This document shows, piece after piece, positions 5,701-50,316 of a stretch of 64,000 nucleotides of DNA. Source of the DNA: Phycisphaerales bacterium (lineage in GTDB: Bacteria; Planctomycetota; Phycisphaerae; Phycisphaerales; SM1A02); the NCBI GenBank assembly GCA_022446885.1, contig JAKVBU010000012.1, positions 1 through 64,000 of the forward strand, in the 5' to 3' direction. The translations under genes and the position numbers were made by a program. Position 1 is the stretch's first letter. Every line of letters begins with the position of its first letter. Under the pieces are notes generated by a model. It saw only the letters and a list, made by a program, of their open reading frames with translations. It made no database searches and was not told the origin of the DNA.

Positions 5701-6369
5701 TCAGGGGCAGGGGCCGAACGCGGAGATGATGACGAGAATGTCGTTGACATCAACGCTTCCGTCTCCGTTGGCATCGCCGCTGCAATCGTCGCTGCAGTCG
5801 CCCCAATCACTGAGTACGGCGAGAATGTCGTCGGCGCCGACCATTCCATCTCCACTGACATCGCCCGGGCAGGCGGTGGTGCCAGTCGCGATCATGTTGA
5901 TCGCACCCTGGAACTCGACGTCCACCAGCGTCACGGTGACTTCACCGAAGGGCCAACCCAGATCGTAGGTCGCCGTACCAAGCGTGACATTGTGCACCAA
6001 CACGGCAAGGCCACCTTCTTCATCAAGATCAGAGGTGGTATCGAAGGAAATCGTCACCGGTTCCGGCGGTTCAGGCGTTACGTACCACTCGGTGCCGAAG
6101 GTTGTCGGGCAAGGCCCGTCTGTTGTGTCGTTGTAGAACTCCGAGGGGATCTGGTCACTGCCATCGATGGGGCCGAACTCGATGCCCAGATACTCGATCG
6201 TGACCCACGCGGAGTCGACCACCTGCTCCATGTAGTAGGACTCAGCGTCCGGTCGGATTACGCCGTCGCTTTCCCAGTACGAATCTCCGCCATCGGTGTA
6301 CATCGACCATGGCCAGGACGCGTCATCTGCGCCAGTCAGGAGGCAGCCAGCCAGAACCAATTCGATCAT
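5701..6369 (-). CDS. Small secreted protein with C-terminal dockerin-like repeats (paralogue A)
   Basis: 222 residues. ATG 6369 has GAGG five bases upstream, and the start aligns with two neighbouring paralogues. It begins MIELVLAGCLLTGADD. The central region (about residues 20-155) is unrecognised and contains the block TYDLGWPFGEVTVTL, shared with the gene at 6707. The C-terminus has two dockerin-like, EF-hand-type units (GDVSGDGMVGADDILAVLSDWG and GDANGDGSVDVNDILVIIS; first given only in part by its key residues D-G-D-G-D-D) and ends in FGPCP. Asp/Asn positions would bind calcium. The likely role is an exported, surface-associated protein. A frame extends upstream of 6369, but its residues are not shared with the paralogues. 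Confidence 0.7.
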   Translation of the reverse strand: MIELVLAGCLLTGADDASWPWSMYTDGGDSYWESDGVIRPDAESYYMEQVVDSAWVTIEYLGIEFGPIDGSDQIPSEFYNDTTDGPCPTTFGTEWYVTPEPPEPVTISFDTTSDLDEEGGLAVLVHNVTLGTATYDLGWPFGEVTVTLVDVEFQGAINMIATGTTACPGDVSGDGMVGADDILAVLSDWGDCSDDCSGDANGDGSVDVNDILVIISAFGPCP

Positions 6370-6501
6370 CTCAACCTCACTCCCACTACTGAGGGCATCA
6401 AACAGATAGCAAATCGTACAACCACCAGCCCAAATGACAAGTGCAATCGACCGCACATTAGGAGCAGGGCCCATAATCCGCGAGGAGCACCAGTAGATCC
6501 G

Positions 6502-6660
6502 TCATAGCGACCAGATCGAGCAGCCATAGTCCTCTGCATCAGTGCGAATGGTCCCCGAGCTCTGCCAGAACATGTCACCGCCGGAAGAGGCGACATCCAT
6601 CGACCATGTCTGTGAGTCGTCCCCGGACACGATGCACCCTGCCAACAGCAATTCCAACAT
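6502..6660 (-). pseudogene. Truncated third paralogue of the flanking dockerin-like proteins
   Basis: A 52-codon frame from ATG 6660 to TGA at 6502-6504. It translates to MLELLLAGCIVSGDDSQTWS, followed by residues including GGDMFWQSSGTIRTDAEDYG. This matches the start of the 5701 gene nearly position by position (MIELVLAGC, WSM, GGD.(Y/F)W.S.G.IR.DAE.Y). After the stop, similarity to the paralogues is lost, and no dockerin-like end follows. It therefore looks like the 5' remnant of a third tandem copy whose remainder was deleted. A weak GGGGTGAG lies just upstream, so a short peptide could still be made. Confidence 0.65.
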
Positions 6661-6706
6661 CACTCACCCCACATCCAGATATATGAACCACAGGCAGAAC
6701 CAGTGT

Positions 6707-7384
6707 TCAGGGACACGGGCCGAACTGGGCAATGACCCAAAGCAAATCAGACACATTTACGTACCAGTCGAGATTTGTGTCGGCAGGGCATGGGTCCACA
6801 GCGGGGCACTCGCCCCAACCGCTGATCACGGCCAGTATGTCGTCCGTGTCGACCGCACCATCGTCATTGGTGTCTCCAATGCAGAGATCATTGCTTGCCG
6901 TTATCGAGATGTTCGCGGCGAGGTAGATCTCTTCCATGGTGACCGTCACCGTGCCAAAGGGCCAACCCAGGTCGTACTCTGCCGTGCCCATCTCGACATT
7001 TTCAATGTCAACATGCAGATGGCCGTCGGTATCCAGATAGGTCAGCAGGTCAAACTGGATAGTCATGGCCTCTGGTGGATCAGGTGTCAGGAATATCCGG
7101 TCGGGAAACGACGCAGGGAGTGGGCCGAACGCCAGGGCGTCGTAATCGGTGTCATCGAGCATGTCGTGCACGTCGAAGGGGCCGAATTCGAATCCCAGAT
7201 AGCTGACCCACGCCTGAATGTCGTAGATGTCGTAGTAGTTCTCGTAGAACGTGTAGTTCTGCCCGACCCCGGTCGGGCTGACCCAGGAAACGTTCTGGCC
7301 AGCGCTCTGGGCATCGACGACCCATTGGGCATAGTCGCCGCCTGTCATGAGCGAACCTGCAAGTACGGTCGAAAGCACCAACAT
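6707..7384 (-). CDS. Small secreted protein with C-terminal dockerin-like repeats (paralogue B)
   Basis: 225 residues from ATG 7384, which has GAGG eight bases upstream; a TTG six bases earlier is less likely. It begins MLVLSTVLAGSLMTGGDYAQ, parallel to the MIEL/MLEL starts of the neighbours. The middle region is rich in Tyr and Asp and shares the block EYDLGWPFGTVTVTM with paralogue A. Two dockerin-like units follow (GDTNDDGAVDTDDILAVISG and ADTNLDWYVNVSDLLWVIAQ), and the last residues are FGPCP. The second unit has lost some calcium-ligand Asp residues. Function is unknown; it is probably exported. The tandem arrangement with 5701 and 6502 indicates local duplication. Confidence 0.7.
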   Translation of the reverse strand: MLVLSTVLAGSLMTGGDYAQWVVDAQSAGQNVSWVSPTGVGQNYTFYENYYDIYDIQAWVSYLGFEFGPFDVHDMLDDTDYDALAFGPLPASFPDRIFLTPDPPEAMTIQFDLLTYLDTDGHLHVDIENVEMGTAEYDLGWPFGTVTVTMEEIYLAANISITASNDLCIGDTNDDGAVDTDDILAVISGWGECPAVDPCPADTNLDWYVNVSDLLWVIAQFGPCP

Positions 7385-38382: not shown

Positions 38383-39840
38383 ATGCTTCAATCACTGGCA
38401 GTGATGACCGTTTCTATCGCGACAGGGGCGAATCAGCCCAACATCATCTTTGTGTTGGCCGACGACCTGGGCTGGGGCGAAGTGGGCTGCAACGGGCAGG
38501 CGCACATTCCTACCCCCTCCATTGACGCCATCGCTCAGGAGGGGTGCAATCTCAGCGCCCATTGGAGCGGTAGCCCGGTGTGCGCCCCCGCCCGTTGTGT
38601 GTTGCTCACGGGGCTGCATCCAGGGCACGCGCAGGTGCGAGGGAATTGGGAGGTTGCTGGATGGGGGCCTGATCAACCCGAGGGGCAGTACCCGTTGGCG
38701 GAGGGCACCCAGACCATGGGCACCCTGCTTCAAGACGCAGGTTATCGAACGTGCTTTGTGGGCAAGTGGGGCAATGGTGGTCCCGGTACACACGGGCATC
38801 CCAACAGGCAGGGGTTCGATCACTTCTACGGGTATCTGTGCCAACGTGTAGCGCACAACTACTACCCGACGCATCTGTGGCGCAACGGCGTTCGTGACCC
38901 ACTCCCCGGAAACGAAGAGTGGTTCAACGCACATCAGAAGATTGCTGCGCCGCTCGAGACCGAGCAAGACTGGTGGGATCGATTCACTGCGGGCACGTGG
39001 TCTTGCGATGCGATGATCGACGAAGCCGACAACTGGATTCGATCGAGCATCGAAGCAGACGAACCATTCCTGTTGGTCTATGCAAGCCCGGTTCCACACC
39101 TGGCGCTGCAGGTGCCACCACAACGGCTGGAGCCGTTCGATCACTTTGAAGAGACGCCTTATCTGGGCGACAGGGCGTATCTGCCTCATCCGCGGCCTCG
39201 CGCGGCCTATGCGGCGATGATTCAGTCGTTCGATGCGGAGATTGGCAGGCTCATGGCGACACTTGAGGAGACGGGGCAGGCCGACAACACCATCGTCGTT
39301 GTCACAAGCGACAACGGCCCATCCTGGGTAGGCGGTGTTGATCTGGAGTTCTTCAATTCGCAGGCTGGACTGCGTGGGCGTAAGGCACAGATCTGGGAAG
39401 GTGGCTTGCGAGTTCCGACGGTGGTGCGGTGGCCGGGGCAGATTGCGCCGGGAACCACGATCGACGTGCCCAGCGGCTTTGAAGATTGGCTGCCGACGTT
39501 CGCAGCAGCGGCTGATGCGGACATTCCTACCGGCCTTGATGGCATCGATCTGAGCGAAGTGCTCGCTGGTGGCGATGCCCCGCTTCGGCCTCTGTATCGC
39601 GAGTTCGCCCCCACCGGATCACAGGCTGTGCGGCTGGGCAAGTGGAAGGGGGTCAGGTCGAGACTCAAGAAGGGTGATCTGACGATCGAGCTGTACAACC
39701 TCGACGACGATCCGGCAGAGACGACCAACGTGGCAGATGCGCACCCAGAAGTGGTCGCGATTTTGGCGCAGGTAATGGCTTCATCGCATGTGCCCTCAGA
39801 GGTGTTTCCTCTGGCGACCATCGACGACCCCGCCTCCTGA
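38383..39840 (+). CDS. Arylsulfatase-type sulfatase
   Basis: 485 residues. Sulfatase motifs: NIIFVLADDLGWGEVGCNGQ near the N-terminus with the metal-binding Asp pair, and the formylglycine site SPVCAPARCVLLTGLHPGH, in which the Cys of CAPAR is converted to formylglycine. Further residues include YRTCFVGKWGNG and VTSDNGPSW, with the second metal Asp/Asn pair. A short hydrophobic start (MLQSLAVMTVSIATGA) indicates export. It should hydrolyse sulfate esters, most plausibly of algal polysaccharides. No formylglycine-generating enzyme is encoded in this window. It is convergent with a second sulfatase, 11 bases apart. Confidence 0.9.
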   Translation: MLQSLAVMTVSIATGANQPNIIFVLADDLGWGEVGCNGQAHIPTPSIDAIAQEGCNLSAHWSGSPVCAPARCVLLTGLHPGHAQVRGNWEVAGWGPDQPEGQYPLAEGTQTMGTLLQDAGYRTCFVGKWGNGGPGTHGHPNRQGFDHFYGYLCQRVAHNYYPTHLWRNGVRDPLPGNEEWFNAHQKIAAPLETEQDWWDRFTAGTWSCDAMIDEADNWIRSSIEADEPFLLVYASPVPHLALQVPPQRLEPFDHFEETPYLGDRAYLPHPRPRAAYAAMIQSFDAEIGRLMATLEETGQADNTIVVVTSDNGPSWVGGVDLEFFNSQAGLRGRKAQIWEGGLRVPTVVRWPGQIAPGTTIDVPSGFEDWLPTFAAAADADIPTGLDGIDLSEVLAGGDAPLRPLYREFAPTGSQAVRLGKWKGVRSRLKKGDLTIELYNLDDDPAETTNVADAHPEVVAILAQVMASSHVPSEVFPLATIDDPAS

Positions 39841-39851
39841 GGCCCGAGCGA

Positions 39852-41231
39852 TCAGAGGGGGGTGGGCATCGGCGCATCCACCCGGTGTCGCCAAGCTTGA
39901 AGCAGGAGCAGCATCGTGTCTCGAATGGCTGGCCGTTGGTCCGCGAGGTTCACCTGCTCTCCGGAATCGTCATGGAGGTCAAACAGCGCCAGGCTGCCGT
40001 CTTCCAGATACTCCATGAGCTTCCAATCGCCTACCCGTATTGCTGAGACCGGCGTGGTCCGCCATTGGCCCGCTACGGCTCCTGCTGCGCCAAGGTAGTA
40101 GGGGTAGTGCCAGTATTGGGCGGGGGCATTTGCGCCCATCGATCGACCTTGCAGCAGTGGGGCAAGGCTGTGGCCATCCCAGTTGTCTACAACCTCGAGG
40201 CCAAACCAATCAGCGATCGTTGGAACGAGATCGTGCAGCGACATCGGCGTGTCACACACTCGTCCAGCTTCAATTCCTGGCCCGGCAATGATCAGCGGTG
40301 TTCGAATGCCGCCTTCGAGCAATTGCCCTTTGCAGCCACGCAACTGCCCGCTGTGTGCGAGCCGTCCCACACCGCCGTGATCTGAGCACAACAGGATCAG
40401 CGAGTCGTCCTTCACATGCTCGAGCAGCCGGCCGATCGCAGCGTCGGTGCGGCGCACCATGCAGTCGTACTTTGCTTGGCGCAAGGTCCATGCTGACTGT
40501 TCTTCTTTGGTCTCTTGCAGGCAGTCAGGGTGAGCCTGAAGCGGCGTGTGCACGTCATAGAAGGACAGGTGCAGGAACACCGGCTCATCTCGGTCTTCAC
40601 TCAATTGGGCGATAGCCTCGTCAACCAGGCGGTCAGTCAGACACTCGCCTTCAGGGCCATCTGGCAGTGTCGGGTTGAGATAGGGGGAGAAGTGGCTCTT
40701 GGGGTGTCCTTTGTTCGAGCCACCAATGTTCACGTCAAAGCCGTGCTTGGTGGGGTCGTTGCCCAGATGCCACTTTCCTATGTGAACGGTGTGCCACCCC
40801 GAATCCCTGAGTGCTGTGGCGATGGTCCGTTGCCCAGGTTGAAGCTGCAATGCCGAGGGAGGCAGGTGCATCTTTCGCAAGGATGCCGGACCTCGCTTGA
40901 TTGGAGCGACGGTGAGTACACCGTGATTCGGTGGCCAGAGCCCCGTCATCAAGCTGGCACGTGCCGGAGCACAATTAGGCCCATTGGCACTTGCATGGGT
41001 GAAGAGGGTTCCAGCTTCGGCCAACCCATCGATTGCAGGGGTCTCATGGCGGCCATCAGGCATGCAACTGGCATCCGCCCAGCCCAGATCGTCTACAACG
41101 ACAAGCACGACATCGGCGGGGGCCGATGCCGTGCCTGCAGTACTTGAATTGGCACCAACTGAACTCGTCGCAATCTGCACACACAGGTTCAGACTGAGCC
41201 CCGCTGCGATCATGCCATCGAACCTATGCAC
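39852..41231 (-). CDS. Sulfatase, second copy of a convergent pair
   Basis: 459 residues from GTG 41231 (GAGG seven bases upstream); ATG 41213 is the alternative. Signal peptide MIAAGLSLNLCVQIATSSVGA. Motifs: DVVLVVVDDLGWADASCMPD, the formylglycine site GPNCAPARASLMTGLWPPN, VHIGKWHLGND, and LLCSDHGGVG for the second metal site. The sequence is clearly different from the neighbour at 38383 beyond the core, so it is not a recent duplicate. It should act on sulfated glycans outside the cytoplasm. The thioredoxin-fold gene lies 18 bases upstream in the same direction and may share its transcript. Confidence 0.9.
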   Translation of the reverse strand: MHRFDGMIAAGLSLNLCVQIATSSVGANSSTAGTASAPADVVLVVVDDLGWADASCMPDGRHETPAIDGLAEAGTLFTHASANGPNCAPARASLMTGLWPPNHGVLTVAPIKRGPASLRKMHLPPSALQLQPGQRTIATALRDSGWHTVHIGKWHLGNDPTKHGFDVNIGGSNKGHPKSHFSPYLNPTLPDGPEGECLTDRLVDEAIAQLSEDRDEPVFLHLSFYDVHTPLQAHPDCLQETKEEQSAWTLRQAKYDCMVRRTDAAIGRLLEHVKDDSLILLCSDHGGVGRLAHSGQLRGCKGQLLEGGIRTPLIIAGPGIEAGRVCDTPMSLHDLVPTIADWFGLEVVDNWDGHSLAPLLQGRSMGANAPAQYWHYPYYLGAAGAVAGQWRTTPVSAIRVGDWKLMEYLEDGSLALFDLHDDSGEQVNLADQRPAIRDTMLLLLQAWRHRVDAPMPTPL

Positions 41232-43415: not shown

Positions 43416-43505
43416 TGCACTGCAGGGGGGTTTTCGCCCAGAATCATCTCGCTCAAGCGGTGCACAGACATGGGGATCGTGATGCAGGCCGCCTACACTG
43501 CCCGT

Positions 43506-43591
43506 GGGCCTGTGGCGGAATTGGCAGACGCAGCGGCCTTAAAAGCCGCAGCCCCGTACGGGGCGTGTGGGTTCGAGCCCCACCGGGCCCA
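43506..43591 (+). tRNA. tRNA-Leu (anticodon TAA)
   Basis: Type II tRNA with a long variable arm. Acceptor GGGCCTG pairs with CGGGCCC (one U-G); the anticodon stem GCGGC/GCCGC encloses CTTAAAA, giving anticodon TAA at 43540-43542. The variable arm stem is CCCCG...CGGGG, and the T arm is GTGGG-TTCGAGC-CCCAC. Position 73 is A, as expected for leucine. CCA is not encoded. The AhpD-like gene starts 75 bases downstream. Confidence 0.93.
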
Positions 43592-43665
43592 GTCTGTCTG
43601 CTCGGGCTGCCCCCTGGGCAGCCTGCGAGGGCACACCTTCTCCATCCTCCTTTGGGAACGTCCAG

Positions 43666-44607: not shown

Positions 44608-47600
44608 ATGCCACTGACAGTTCGTCACATGGACGGCCAGTTTGAAGGCCGCACCCAGACATTCGATGACGATGTCGAGTCAATCCTGATCGGTCGAGAT
44701 CCATCGACCTGCCAGATCGTGTTGCCTCCGGATGCCCGAATGGCCTCCCGTGAGCATTGCACCCTTGCACGGGTGCGTGGTCGGTATCTGATCGACATGA
44801 ATGCCGATCGGCGGGTCACACTCGACGGGCATCAGATGCTCGAGCGTGGGTCCCCTCTGCCTGACTCATGCGAACTGCAAATCGGTCCAGACGGCCCCAG
44901 GCTCAAGTTGTTGGTCATTCGGCACTCCCAGATGGAGAGCACAGCTGATCAACAGATCGATGAGTCAGAGGTCGTCCGCCGATCGAGTCGGGCCGCCACC
45001 GAGATGGATGTCGAAGAGGTTGCCCAAGAAGCGGGCAGTTCCCGCCGCCTTGGTGTGATTGCAGGGGTCATCGCGGTGCTCGCCGTGGCCGTCGGTCTTG
45101 TGGTGTTCTTCGTCACCCGCAGTGACGTGGAGGATCTGCAGGTTGCCGATGCCCAACAAGATCAGGCCATTGGCTCGCTTGAGGGTCGAACCGACGAGAT
45201 TGAAGACGACCTCATCGTGCTCGGTGCTGATCTGCCGGAAATCATGGATAGCGCGCGAGAGTCGGTGTATCTGGTGGTCTACCGGGCTGCAGATGGTGGC
45301 GAGACTGGCGTAGGCACCGCCTTTGCCGTTGGGCCAACGACTGTCGCCACCAACGCCCATGTCGCAGCTTGGCATGATCGTCTGGAGGTCGGCGACCAAT
45401 TGGTACTTCGCAGCGCTGCCGAAGACGGAGAAGATCCCGAGGACATCGCGATCATCTCTGCCGCCGCTCACCCGGGATATGACGCGTTTGCAGAACTGTG
45501 GCGCGACTATGTGCCTGTTCGGCTCAACGCGAGCAAGGGCATTGACCCCGTCCGCAGCGCTGGGTCGGCATGTGATGTCGCCCTGTTGAGTGTGGCCGAG
45601 GGCGCTTCGCTGGGCCCACCGCTTCCGATGGCAAGCGAAGTACATCAGGCGTCGCTCGCCCCCGGTCATGCCATCGCATCGGTCGGGTTCCCGATGGAGG
45701 GAATGGCGATGGAGGGCGTGAATGTCAGGCGTCCTGTGCCCCAGTCACAGATTGGCCGAGTAACGGCGCTGACAACCTTCTTCAACACATCTGAAGACGA
45801 GTCTGAAACAGGCCCCGGCCAACGCAACACGCTTGTCCAACACTCGATTCCGGGAACGGGCGGCGCAAGTGGCAGCCCGATCATCAACGGAGCCGGAGAA
45901 GTTGTGGGCGTACTCAGTGCGGTCAACTTTGCGATCGTCGATGGGCAACGCTTTCCCACGGGTGTAGGCGTGAACTTCGCTCAGCGATCGACCTTGCTCG
46001 AGGAGCTGATGGAAGGTGCCGCCCTCGGTGCGTTGCAGGATCGCCTGGCACTCTGGAATGCCTCAGTGCAACAGCTCTACCACTCCGGCAAGTTGATCCG
46101 CGGCAAGGGGGACATGGATGCGCTGATCGCACTGTGGCGACGACAGATTCAGGATCAGGCTGGCGACGATGTTGTCGTACTGACCAAGGAGCGGGCAAGG
46201 GAGTTCTTTCCTTTGACCTCTCTCGAAGCTGGCCGGCAGGGGGGCGATGGGGACTCAGACGGGTTCACCACGGAGGTGCCCATCGACATCGAAGCTGACG
46301 GGTGGTATCTGTTTGTTGTCGAGTCCGATGGTCAGGTTGTGGCAGACCTCGACGACCCGGACGGAGCCGCAACAGGGAAGGTGTACGTACCGCTGGCGGA
46401 GGGGGTGCACGGGGTGGCATTCAGGGGCAAGACCGATGGTCAGGTTGTTGGCACGATTCAGACGGACGGCCAGCAGCACGTGACCTACGGCATCCAGGAG
46501 GGCGAGTCCGTCACAGCAATGCCGGCGAACATCCTCAAACTCGCTCGCGATCAATGGCGTGATGATCTGAACGACCGATGGGGAACCAAGGTTCGCGACG
46601 CTGGTGGCTTGGCTGGCCAAGGAGACACCGTCACCGAGACTGCGGATGGGCGGTTCTATGAGGTGCAGCCGATCTCGATCGATCGATATGGCCGTTACAT
46701 GATCGCCGTGGTCGCGCCAGATCGTCAGAACGTCGATCTTCGGTTGTTCCGTGTTGATGGTGATCAGCGTGATCTCATCGCTGAAGACGTACAGGACGAC
46801 TGGTATCCCTATCTAGTCATCGACACTGATCTGGGTGTCGAACTCGAGGCTGAGATTGTCAGTGACGAGGCGAATGCCGACTACGAGGTGTATGTCTACC
46901 GGGCAGTTGTTGCCGGAGACACGGATGACGACGACACCGTTCAGGCGACAGACATCGTCAACGTCGCCCTGAACTTCGGTAACGAAGCCCCTGAGGGCGA
47001 GGTGTTGGCGGCAGATGTCGATGACAGCGGCAAGGTGGACGTTCAAGACCTTCTCGATGTGCTGTCGAACTTCAACGAGGGTTGGCCGATCGATGGGCAG
47101 CCACAGCCCAAGCGTCTCATCTGCATGTTCACGATTGGCGGCTCGTACCATCAGGGTCTGGCCGGGATTCACCCACTGTTGTTCAATGAGCAAGATGGGT
47201 GGAATCTGATCGTTGAGTCACGTGTGAAGCCGCTGGCCAATCGTCTCGGCGTCGGGGCATTTGATTGGTGGGGGCACAATGTGTGCGGCTACTGGAGTGA
47301 TCACGACTATTACTGGGCCAGCGATGAGATCACCGAGGTAATGACGTTCGAGCAACTCATGTACGCTCGTGAGCAGATCCCTTCGCTGACCGACTTCTCT
47401 CCATTGCGAGAGTTCGCCGACACACAGGGCATGCAGCTCTATGGCTACATCGGTCAGCCTCGCAGTTATGAGCGAAGTGGTACGCCTGGCGGCATGCCCT
47501 TCGACACGGATTGGTCTCACGGTGACAAGACCAAGATGGATCTCTACTACAAGGAGTTCATCGACTCCCGTTTCATCGGACTCGGGCACGATGCCTCGAT

Positions 47601-48030
47601 TCACCACCCGGCAGGCTCTCCTTGGCTGACTGAAATGGTCCCCGCGCTCAAGGAGAACGGCATCGAGGTGTTTATTGAGTCTTTGCCCAAGCGATCGCAC
47701 CCCCATCTGCTGGGCATGAACGTAGTGGCGGAGCATCGAGTCTGGACCAACTTCGGTAACTACCCGGAGGTCTGGTACACAGAAGATGAGATCAAGGCCG
47801 CCGGAGGCCGCACGATTCACATGATCACATGGCCCTTTGGACAGGCGCCTGGAGATTCTGGGTACGACCCTGACTTCGACAACTCGCAGTGGCAATTCCA
47901 AAAAGCCAAGGAGCTGTTGCTGGCGGGCGAGTTTGTTGTGTGCCCCTTGTATGGTCTGCACAACCGCGGGTATCCGCTCGAAGAACTTGTCGAAGCAGCA
48001 GCCCCGCGAGCGAAGGTGATCGTCGAGTGA
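44608..48030 (+). CDS. FHA-domain, membrane-spanning trypsin-like protease with dockerin-like and C-terminal glycosidase-like domain
   Basis: 1140 residues. Residues 1-105 are an FHA phosphothreonine-binding domain with GRDPSTC (29-35) and SREH (47-50). Residues 149-169 are one membrane helix. Outside lies a trypsin/HtrA-like protease with His251 (TNAHVAAW), Asp323 (ACDVALLSV) and Ser421 (GGASGSP), so the triad is complete. Two beta-rich repeats follow at about 530-640 and 655-770, each resembling a PPC-type sandwich (IEADGWYLFVVESDG; IDRYGRYMIAVVAPD). Dockerin-like units lie at about 770-828. Residues 833-1140 look like a TIM-barrel, perhaps glycosidase-like (LGVGAFDWWGHN, DTDWSHGDKT, YGYIGQPRSY). 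The cytoplasmic FHA end could sense phosphoproteins and the outer end cleave proteins or glycans. I know no family with this combination. Confidence 0.75.
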   Translation: MPLTVRHMDGQFEGRTQTFDDDVESILIGRDPSTCQIVLPPDARMASREHCTLARVRGRYLIDMNADRRVTLDGHQMLERGSPLPDSCELQIGPDGPRLKLLVIRHSQMESTADQQIDESEVVRRSSRAATEMDVEEVAQEAGSSRRLGVIAGVIAVLAVAVGLVVFFVTRSDVEDLQVADAQQDQAIGSLEGRTDEIEDDLIVLGADLPEIMDSARESVYLVVYRAADGGETGVGTAFAVGPTTVATNAHVAAWHDRLEVGDQLVLRSAAEDGEDPEDIAIISAAAHPGYDAFAELWRDYVPVRLNASKGIDPVRSAGSACDVALLSVAEGASLGPPLPMASEVHQASLAPGHAIASVGFPMEGMAMEGVNVRRPVPQSQIGRVTALTTFFNTSEDESETGPGQRNTLVQHSIPGTGGASGSPIINGAGEVVGVLSAVNFAIVDGQRFPTGVGVNFAQRSTLLEELMEGAALGALQDRLALWNASVQQLYHSGKLIRGKGDMDALIALWRRQIQDQAGDDVVVLTKERAREFFPLTSLEAGRQGGDGDSDGFTTEVPIDIEADGWYLFVVESDGQVVADLDDPDGAATGKVYVPLAEGVHGVAFRGKTDGQVVGTIQTDGQQHVTYGIQEGESVTAMPANILKLARDQWRDDLNDRWGTKVRDAGGLAGQGDTVTETADGRFYEVQPISIDRYGRYMIAVVAPDRQNVDLRLFRVDGDQRDLIAEDVQDDWYPYLVIDTDLGVELEAEIVSDEANADYEVYVYRAVVAGDTDDDDTVQATDIVNVALNFGNEAPEGEVLAADVDDSGKVDVQDLLDVLSNFNEGWPIDGQPQPKRLICMFTIGGSYHQGLAGIHPLLFNEQDGWNLIVESRVKPLANRLGVGAFDWWGHNVCGYWSDHDYYWASDEITEVMTFEQLMYAREQIPSLTDFSPLREFADTQGMQLYGYIGQPRSYERSGTPGGMPFDTDWSHGDKTKMDLYYKEFIDSRFIGLGHDASIHHPAGSPWLTEMVPALKENGIEVFIESLPKRSHPHLLGMNVVAEHRVWTNFGNYPEVWYTEDEIKAAGGRTIHMITWPFGQAPGDSGYDPDFDNSQWQFQKAKELLLAGEFVVCPLYGLHNRGYPLEELVEAAAPRAKVIVE

Positions 48031-48038
48031 TCAGCCTG

Positions 48039-50312
48039 TCAGGGGCACGGCCCCCATGCGGAAATGATGATGAGCAAGTCGCTCACGTCGGTATGGCCAT
48101 CACCGTCTACGTCACCTGTTCCGTTGGCTGAGCCCCAGCCGGACAGCACGATCAGCAGATCGACGACATCGGTGTCCCCATCGACATCCAAGTCGCCCGG
48201 GCAGGCGCAATTGCCTCCGACTGCATTGCCGCCCCCATCGATCCACTCACCGTCGACATCATCAATGGTGTTGCTGCACACCTCGGTGCCTTCGAGCTGA
48301 AGCGATGCCGACTCGATGTAAATACCACCGCCCGTCTGCGCGACGTTGTGTCGAATACGCCCATCTGTGATCGAGCCCTCCGCCGACTGGAGTGCGATCC
48401 CCCCACCCGTCTCAGCGGAGCAGTTGCGAACTGATGACAGCACCATGTGGAGATCACCACCCTCGACATGGAGGCCTCCGCCGTGTGCAGCACTGCCATC
48501 AGTGAACAGTGCGTCTTGCACTTCCAGTGTGGAGTCAAGGGCGTCCACGAGGCCGCCCGAGAGAGAGGCACTCCCTTCCTGCACAGTTGAGTTGCGAATG
48601 GTGCACATGGCACTTCGAAGGGCAAGCGCGCCGCCTCGGTCGACTTCAGATCCCATCAACCTGACGTTCGACAAGGACAACTCGCTGTCCTCAACATGGA
48701 GGCATCCGCCTGCCCATCCGTCATCGCCTTCGTTTACGCCTGCTCCACCGATGAGGTGGATTCGGCGAACATCGGCGATGGCACCCTCTTGCAGGCGAAG
48801 TGCCGGACCGGTCTGAGTGCCTTGAATACTGCAGGTGTCTTCACTCCACCCGCGAATTTCGATCTCTCTACCTGCAACCAACACAGGGCCAGCGTGCTCG
48901 CCTGAAGCAATGTGCACGATCGAGCCATCGGGGGGGTCCAGGGTAGAGAGATCCTGACTGGGTGCCTGAATGAGTACATCGACATCGCCGGCCAACTCGC
49001 GCTCGATCTGCTCCCACATCAAGCCGGCCATGAGATCAGCGGCCTCATTATCTCCGTAGTGAACGCCGTCGGGCAGCGTGTCGCCGTGCAGATACCTGTG
49101 GGCGCCCGCAACGAGATGCAGATTGACGAATCCGGTGTCAGGGCGATCAGCGGCGATACCTGACAAGACCGCCGCCATGCGATGGTGTCGATCACTGTCA
49201 TCATTGGTAGACCAAGGAGCGACCAGCAGAAACAGTGGATCTGCATCAAGATCAAGGGAGAGGGCCGCGGCCGAGTATCGCTCCATGAGAGCCAACACAT
49301 GGTCGCGCCACAGACCTTCGACATCCTGCATCTGCTCCCACGTCATGTTTTGCCCGAGCAGCAGCATGAAGCAGTTGGGCCGACGTGTCGCATCCAGGTA
49401 CCTGGCCAGCGCCTCATCGTCATAGTGACCGGCCGACGTCAGATGATGCTCGACGGTGAAGCCGCCCTCGGCAATCGAGTCAACCTGTAGCCCTTGAACG
49501 TCTGTGCGCCAGACAACCTGTCCGACGTGATAGAACGTCTCACCTGCAGTGCAGTTGTCCGGGCAGGGTGATGCGCCGCCCTGACCGTCGCTGGTCCAGC
49601 CTTCTGGTGTGCGCACCTGCGTCGTAACAGTTCCACTGCCTTGAGGAATAGTCGCGTCAACCCAGTCAATCCACGCCCGGTCTGCCTCGCTTCGAGGCGA
49701 GAGGGAGACCCAAGGCCCGTTCGCGTTGCCCCGTAGTGCGCGATAGCGAAGTTCCGAAAGCCCCGATGGATCACGAGCGAACATCAGCCGCGCCTTCAGG
49801 TGTCCACTGGATGTCCAATCCCCACCCGGATACTCGTCGAGTCGGGTCAGCGCCCCGGCGCAGTAGTGGGCGTTCGATGACAGCCCAGTGCCGGTTGTGA
49901 CCATGTCGAGGGCTCTGTTGGGAACGAAGGCATCCTGGCCGTTACTCCACACGTGGTGGTTGCCGCTGCCGACGTGGTAGATGGCCCGTGGGAACAGATC
50001 GAAGCCACCTTGTGCCGTGGTAATGACGAAGCCCTCGTCAGACGCCGGCGTTCCGCTGGACACTCTGCCGACAAACTGGTCTGGTTGCCATGTTCGGCAG
50101 ACCCCTCCAACTGTGCTGTGCAACGCTGACTTGACCGTGTTGGAATCTCCAATGATCAGCAGACGGCAGTCTTCGTGAGCGATGCGGGTTGCGATTGGAG
50201 CCAGGCCCACACGTGCTGGCGCGAACGCCACATCAGCCGTGGCCTGATGCCCGGACACGAGCAGGCACACCGCAAATGTGATCACTGTGATTGGCCTGTC
50301 GGGCACCCGCAT
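48039..50312 (-). CDS. Secreted SGNH hydrolase fused to a right-handed beta-helix, with dockerin-like C-terminus
   Basis: 757 residues from ATG 50312 (AGGAG four bases upstream); GTG 50315 is the neighbouring alternative. Signal peptide MRVPDRPITVITFAVCLLVS. SGNH blocks: the nucleophile Ser in LLIIGDSNTVK and the catalytic Asp/His in LPDGVHYGDNEAAD. Residues about 450-680 are beta-helix repeats (GGALALRSAMCTIRNSTVQE; GGGLHVEGGDLHMVLSS; GGGIYIESASLQLEGTEV). Two dockerin-like units end the protein in AWGPCP (GDLDVDGDTDVVDLLIVLSG; GDVDGDGHTDVSDLLIIISA). The combination suggests an esterase that deacylates polysaccharide. It is convergent with the FHA protease, nine bases away. Confidence 0.75.
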   Translation of the reverse strand: MRVPDRPITVITFAVCLLVSGHQATADVAFAPARVGLAPIATRIAHEDCRLLIIGDSNTVKSALHSTVGGVCRTWQPDQFVGRVSSGTPASDEGFVITTAQGGFDLFPRAIYHVGSGNHHVWSNGQDAFVPNRALDMVTTGTGLSSNAHYCAGALTRLDEYPGGDWTSSGHLKARLMFARDPSGLSELRYRALRGNANGPWVSLSPRSEADRAWIDWVDATIPQGSGTVTTQVRTPEGWTSDGQGGASPCPDNCTAGETFYHVGQVVWRTDVQGLQVDSIAEGGFTVEHHLTSAGHYDDEALARYLDATRRPNCFMLLLGQNMTWEQMQDVEGLWRDHVLALMERYSAAALSLDLDADPLFLLVAPWSTNDDSDRHHRMAAVLSGIAADRPDTGFVNLHLVAGAHRYLHGDTLPDGVHYGDNEAADLMAGLMWEQIERELAGDVDVLIQAPSQDLSTLDPPDGSIVHIASGEHAGPVLVAGREIEIRGWSEDTCSIQGTQTGPALRLQEGAIADVRRIHLIGGAGVNEGDDGWAGGCLHVEDSELSLSNVRLMGSEVDRGGALALRSAMCTIRNSTVQEGSASLSGGLVDALDSTLEVQDALFTDGSAAHGGGLHVEGGDLHMVLSSVRNCSAETGGGIALQSAEGSITDGRIRHNVAQTGGGIYIESASLQLEGTEVCSNTIDDVDGEWIDGGGNAVGGNCACPGDLDVDGDTDVVDLLIVLSGWGSANGTGDVDGDGHTDVSDLLIIISAWGPCP

Positions 50313-50316
50313 CACT

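Follow-up and report, generated by a model that had tools for sequence, protein, structure and literature searches.

On the forward strand of the window, the whole 64,000-nucleotide stretch of Phycisphaerales DNA that was analysed, an open reading frame at 44608–48030 starts with ATG, contains no internal stop codons, and encodes a protein of 1140 amino acids. Its stop codon lies 8 bases from a convergent gene. The features at this locus are as follows:

44608..48030 (+): whole gene, encoding an FHA domain, a membrane helix, an S1 protease, a beta-rich region, a dockerin-like repeat, and a TIM barrel (ORF, Pfam, and full-length relatives)
44686..44886 (+): FHA domain, residues 27–93, with a degenerate phosphothreonine pocket (Pfam PF00498, motif alignment)
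45052..45114 (+): single membrane helix, residues 149–169, predicted N-in/C-out, followed by an acidic segment (hydropathy, flanking charges)
45229..46032 (+): S1 protease domain with HtrA-like fold, residues ~208–475 (Trypsin_2, VIA, invariant triad)
45358–45360, 45574–45576, and 45868–45870 (+): codons of the triad residues H251, D323, and S421 (alignment)
46174..46902 (+): beta-rich region, residues ~523–765, apparently two beta-sandwich-like units (low-confidence full-length model)
46912..47061 (+): dockerin-like calcium loops at the chassis/module junction, residues 771–782 (DTDDDDTVQATD) and 803–814 (DVDDSGKVDVQD) (Pfam scans, loop positions)
47107..48027 (+): C-terminal TIM-barrel module A, residues 834–1140 (AlphaFold2, alignments, Foldseek, VIA)
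48039..50315 (−): convergent neighbour of 758 amino acids with a C-terminal dockerin-like repeat (Pfam, synteny)

The FHA domain, which a sequence-only reading of this DNA had already proposed, is matched by PF00498 with 28.9 bits (cut-off 20.7), placing it in the FHA fold, and carries GRDP at residue 29 and SREH at residue 47. The helix proposed at residues 149–169 coincides with the one strongly hydrophobic 19-mer of the protein (residues 151–169, mean Kyte-Doolittle 3.05; runner-up 1.57); it is immediately preceded by Ser-Ser-Arg-Arg and followed by an acidic segment, and these flanking charges fit a single pass in the N-in/C-out orientation with the FHA domain predicted inside, which would put the FHA domain in the cytoplasm and all parts C-terminal to the helix in the periplasm. 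Membership of the protease domain in S1 is given by a Trypsin_2 match (PF13365, residues 236–435, 55.8 bits, cut-off 27.6), and the complete His251/Asp323/Ser421 triad that had been read from the sequence is invariant in 6 of 6 aligned sequences; the best fold matches in VIA are HtrA1 and the S1C domain of RsgI9, tied at Z 17.6. The protein thus shares an N-terminal helix and an S1 protease fold (Z ~16–17.6) with HtrA and DegS, but differs from both in having no PDZ domain after the protease (none in a Pfam scan at E up to 1), an FHA domain inside, a long beta-rich region, and a modular C-terminus. A Pfam scan gave no family for the beta-rich region; of the full-length AlphaFold2 model (mean pLDDT 50.5), only the protease was relied on, and the part covering this region was taken as a hint.

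A frame fusion or a sequencing or assembly error can be ruled out because three further marine Phycisphaerales sequences, 64–69% identical, carry the whole architecture (L007 and L015, on two contigs of the MAG ALOHA_ZT_37, and L030 of UBA12567, the same locus as in G864) and because residues 766–845, which comprise the dockerin and the junction, show purifying selection (dN 0.028, dS 0.31); the view of the frame as one protein and not two erroneously joined genes therefore stands. The combination had also been called unusual, and indeed a dockerin, an FHA domain, and a transmembrane segment together were not found in the open-access papers searched, absence from which is not absence from the literature as a whole; a publication found for FHA domains, trypsin-like proteases, and Planctomycetes concerns NTP-dependent conflict systems and not the present protein. 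Elsewhere in the window, two related genes lie at 38383–41231; one of them matches Sulfatase in Pfam and the second resembles the first, and each is represented near the homologous gene of G699. In addition, a tRNA-Leu (taa) is encoded at 43505–43592 (+).

A conserved chassis with exchangeable C-terminal modules

By comparison of homologues, residues 1–830 are a conserved chassis and the end of the protein is variable, an aspect absent from the sequence-only reading. When 181 genomes of the family were searched, 15 of them, from four genera, proved to encode the chassis. Module A follows it in the window, in ALOHA_ZT_37 (twice), and in G864; a module B of 441 amino acids follows it in G865 and G866, and a module C of 287 amino acids in G868, while the chassis of genera g5 and g301 carry no module. 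Module B spans 8223–9545 in L148, and module C 5882–6742 on the minus strand of L150. The three modules have no detectable sequence similarity to one another (BLASTP E 0.29 or worse), and phmmer searches of the PDB with modules B and C gave no convincing match. Module-bearing chassis form one group in the chassis tree (100/100); because all seven of them have the dockerin, it was probably gained once, with modules exchanged behind it. The chassis homologue in G006 ends at residue 767. At the syntenic locus of G699, which belongs to another genus and shares the flanking genes for malic enzyme, an MFS transporter, a thioredoxin-DUF2092 protein, and sulfatases with the window, a 788-amino-acid homologue ends at the equivalent of residue ~771, with neither dockerin nor barrel; the locus is also syntenic between the window and ALOHA_ZT_37. 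FHA–helix–trypsin-like proteins with the same core occur in several families of the class Phycisphaerae, but those outside the present group stop after the beta-rich region.

Each module type also occurs as a separate protein (A-type proteins, B-type matches in 38 genomes, and C-type in 8). The N-terminus is hydrophobic in most of those examined, and in many a dockerin precedes the module; some relatives of A and C lack a dockerin. Of six genomes in which a module is fused, all related to each other, five also encode a separate protein from the family to which that module belongs; the exception is G864 (84% complete). The fused barrel is not a recent copy of a separate barrel of the same genome, since fused barrels form one group (100/99). 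Tandem family A barrels lacking a dockerin were seen in the Planctomycetota MAG Bpl_8 (G022, contigs C64 and C247; L011, L016, L019, and L021).

The co-binned sequences L007 and L015 are 95% identical over the chassis, with dS of 0.2–0.3, but from residue ~846 the values change abruptly to dN 0.30 and dS 1.64. The two are sisters in the chassis tree (100/100), whereas in the barrel tree L007 pairs with the window protein and not with L015 (82/86). Given this abrupt jump in dS and the conflicting barrel grouping, the simplest reading of the alignments is that the barrel and the end of the downstream gene were replaced by recombination; rapid positive selection was ruled out, as dS climbs along with dN. 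L015, on a 5.5-kb contig, may represent a strain allele or a second copy. Its counterpart of the 758-amino-acid convergent neighbour has been replaced as well, by a protein with 39% identity, and because this swap accompanies that of the barrel, the neighbour and the 1140-amino-acid protein may be functionally linked. In G864 (L030), assigned to genus g35, chassis and module A are nearer to the genus of the window (73%) than to their own congeners (47–51%), suggesting whole-gene transfer or old paralogy.

The presence of a protease and a module in one chain, together with the existence of module families that also act as separate proteins, would be compatible with self-processing, in which the protease cuts in or near the dockerin hinge to free the barrel and the chassis serves as a regulated delivery device for a soluble module. 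We regard this as very improbable, as no cleavage site was seen and relatives keep the protease without any module, so that module release cannot be the general role of the protease.

The barrel and the dockerin-like repeat

The separate C-terminal domain of 308 residues, guessed earlier to be barrel-like, is modelled by AlphaFold2 (13 sequences, pLDDT 88.6) as an eight-stranded alpha/beta barrel, that is, a TIM barrel. The sequence-only reading had also weighed that this domain might be a common fold always found with such proteases; the fold is common, but its association with proteases is not constant. Neither Pfam, which gave no family above cut-off for any of 13 module A members, nor a sequence search of the PDB produced a convincing match, and module A cannot be placed by sequence in a named glycoside hydrolase family. 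The top Foldseek match is the 3,6-anhydro-D-galactosidase ZgGH129 (E 1.2e-5, TM 0.46), with sugar epimerases and further barrels ranking next, and VIA ties enzymes of GH13, GH20, GH29, and GH31 with ZgGH129 at Z ~12. Because Foldseek gives the barrel low TM-scores, none above ~0.5, the link to glycoside hydrolases that these models offer is one of fold resemblance only. A viral origin of the barrel was considered and rejected, as the viral contigs contained no relative and the viral fold matches were weak TIM barrels.

Strands 4 and 5 of module A end in the invariant residues D995 and E1024, respectively; R952 in strand 3 is likewise invariant, and E1042 in strand 6 is nearly so. A strand-4 Asp paired with a strand-5 Glu is the arrangement of several retaining alpha-glycosidases (GH13/GH101/GH129). 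Module A resembles barrels of this type in its fold and in the acidic residues that end strands 4 and 5, and differs from them in its lack of a Pfam or PDB sequence match and its low TM-scores; as placed in the model, D995 and E1024 are likely catalytic.

These acidic positions, the intact protease triad, ZgGH129 as the best Foldseek match, the separate dockerin-barrel proteins, and the sulfatase gene nearby favour the main rival to the sensing role proposed below, namely that the protein is a tethered enzyme that does not signal. The barrel would be an active glycoside hydrolase, the protease an active periplasmic one, and the FHA–helix part only an anchor or assembly handle; the fusion would hold both enzymes close to where imported polysaccharide or glycoprotein is processed, at the inner membrane. 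We consider both this role and this placement quite possible, although the fold match is weak, the substrate is hypothetical, and a conserved FHA fold with its own GRDP...REHC pattern is left unexplained.

Two 12-residue loops, at residues 771–782 and 803–814, account for the dockerin-like units that had been noticed near the end of the chassis. The PF00404 match in the window protein (residues 769–817) is below cut-off, with 11.6 bits in the protein scan and 18.3 bits in the genome scan. The repeat shares the paired calcium loops of the type I dockerins of cellulosomes and of the proposed planctosome (PMC6461901) but differs from them in being internal, below cut-off, and part of a membrane protein in a genome without cohesin; the above-cut-off match and the cohesin partner that characterise cellulosomal type I dockerins are thus both absent. 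A profile scan of the same genome found no cohesin, and docking of this dockerin onto a cohesin is, from the sequence data, unlikely. This genome (G000) contains ~75 dockerin-like matches of similar grade, many of them below cut-off, which, with zero cohesins, suggests a different role for dockerins in this lineage.

A degenerate FHA pocket

The Asn-Gly loop of FHA domains holds the backbone of the phosphopeptide. All 17 aligned chassis homologues have another sequence in place of this loop, mostly Asp-Arg-x-Val, and 15 of them have glycine instead of the serine that contacts the phosphate (Ser47), which the window protein and the outgroup keep. Only Arg30 and His50 of the pocket are kept throughout, within a conserved replacement pattern of GRDP...REHC followed mostly by DRxV, and the chassis clade consequently lacks the full phosphothreonine-binding motif set (Gly-Arg, Ser-x-x-His, and Asn-Gly). 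The canonical pocket is retained in four of five more distant FHA–helix–protease proteins of the class. Because the Asn-Gly loop is gone and the serine is mostly glycine, a phosphothreonine input is doubtful, and the FHA domain seems to have given up its usual ligand.

This bears on the direction of signalling. The sequence-only reading took the FHA domain as the receiver of a phosphothreonine signal: a phosphoprotein from a cytoplasmic Ser/Thr kinase would bind it and switch the outer protease or barrel. In favour of this, the genome encodes 9 FHA domains along with ~15 protein kinase domains, the pocket retains Arg30 and His50, and distant relatives have canonical pockets; however, a scan of the neighbouring genes found no kinase, and the loss of the loop and, in most homologues, of the serine speaks against such a receiver. 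With the pocket degenerate across the clade, the kinase-to-outside reading is weak, and we judge inside-out signalling improbable.

Possible glycan sensing and the comparison with RsgI

In the RsgI proteins of Clostridium thermocellum, a helix connects a cytoplasmic domain with a C-terminal domain that is variable and binds carbohydrate outside the cell; the GH10 domain of RsgI6 has hardly any activity but retains binding to its glycans and resembles the enzyme Xyn10D, and RsgI9 has an S1C protease-like domain (PMC12203970, PMC4711584). The present protein is similar in its predicted cytoplasmic N-terminal domain, its one helix, and a variable, glycoside-hydrolase-like C-terminal domain outside; the variability is seen here, and glycan binding is predicted only. 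It is not itself an RsgI protein: it has an FHA domain at the N-terminus, where no anti-sigma family (and hence no SigI-binding anti-sigma domain) was matched, as well as a complete triad and a dockerin-like hinge, and a scan of neighbouring genes gave no sigma-factor gene. In RsgI, the nearest analogue, the signal runs from outside to inside, opposite to the direction proposed earlier for this gene.

Our best guess, put forward tentatively, is that a membrane chassis with exchangeable ends senses glycans. The ectodomain should lie in the space between the membranes, where polysaccharide arrives; there the barrel would meet a polysaccharide or glycoprotein fragment, its occupancy would alter the protease or the stalk, and the alteration would pass along the helix to a partner bound by the FHA domain in the cytoplasm, in a manner independent of phosphothreonine. 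The C-terminal module would set recognition and so be swapped among lineages and strains on a constant chassis. The logic would be that of the clostridial RsgI sensors with an FHA domain replacing the anti-sigma domain, in a scheme in which the cytoplasmic partner, the regulator, and the ligand are all hypothetical.

Counted for sensing are a well-supported chassis tree whose members carry module A, B, or C or lack a module, the recombinational exchange at ~846 between L007 and L015, the co-occurrence of fused and separate modules, comparable to RsgI6-GH10 and Xyn10D (PMC4711584), a protease equally near RsgI9 and HtrA1, a barrel whose fold is nearest to glycoside hydrolases, and the import of large polysaccharides into the space between membranes by marine planctomycetes (PMC5520146). 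Against it, the intact triad and the likely catalytic barrel acids possibly point to plain catalysis, the low TM-scores limit the glycoside hydrolase link to the fold, and the co-occurrence of fused and separate modules, seen in six related genomes, could reflect origin and not function.

We consider it on balance unlikely, but worth stating, that these proteins constitute a hitherto undescribed family of transmembrane glycan sensors of planctomycetes. A phosphothreonine-independent FHA domain and an HtrA-like protease would form the fixed chassis, and lineages and strains would retune specificity by exchanging dockerin-linked, enzyme-like modules at its end, taken from families that also comprise separate proteins, most of them secreted. 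Little is known of how planctomycetes perceive and process complex marine polysaccharides, which they import whole between the membranes. If glycan sensing is correct, fixed chassis with exchangeable ends would provide concrete candidates, each end should report what its strain meets, and an RsgI-like design would exist with another cytoplasmic domain.

A further FHA protein was observed at related loci: no homologue of it was found in the window, but in two module-less genera the FHA-protease gene faces a convergent gene for an FHA-GAF-HD protein (HD_5, HD-GYP-like; L114:6350–7921 and L115:17666–19261), whose FHA motif is canonical.
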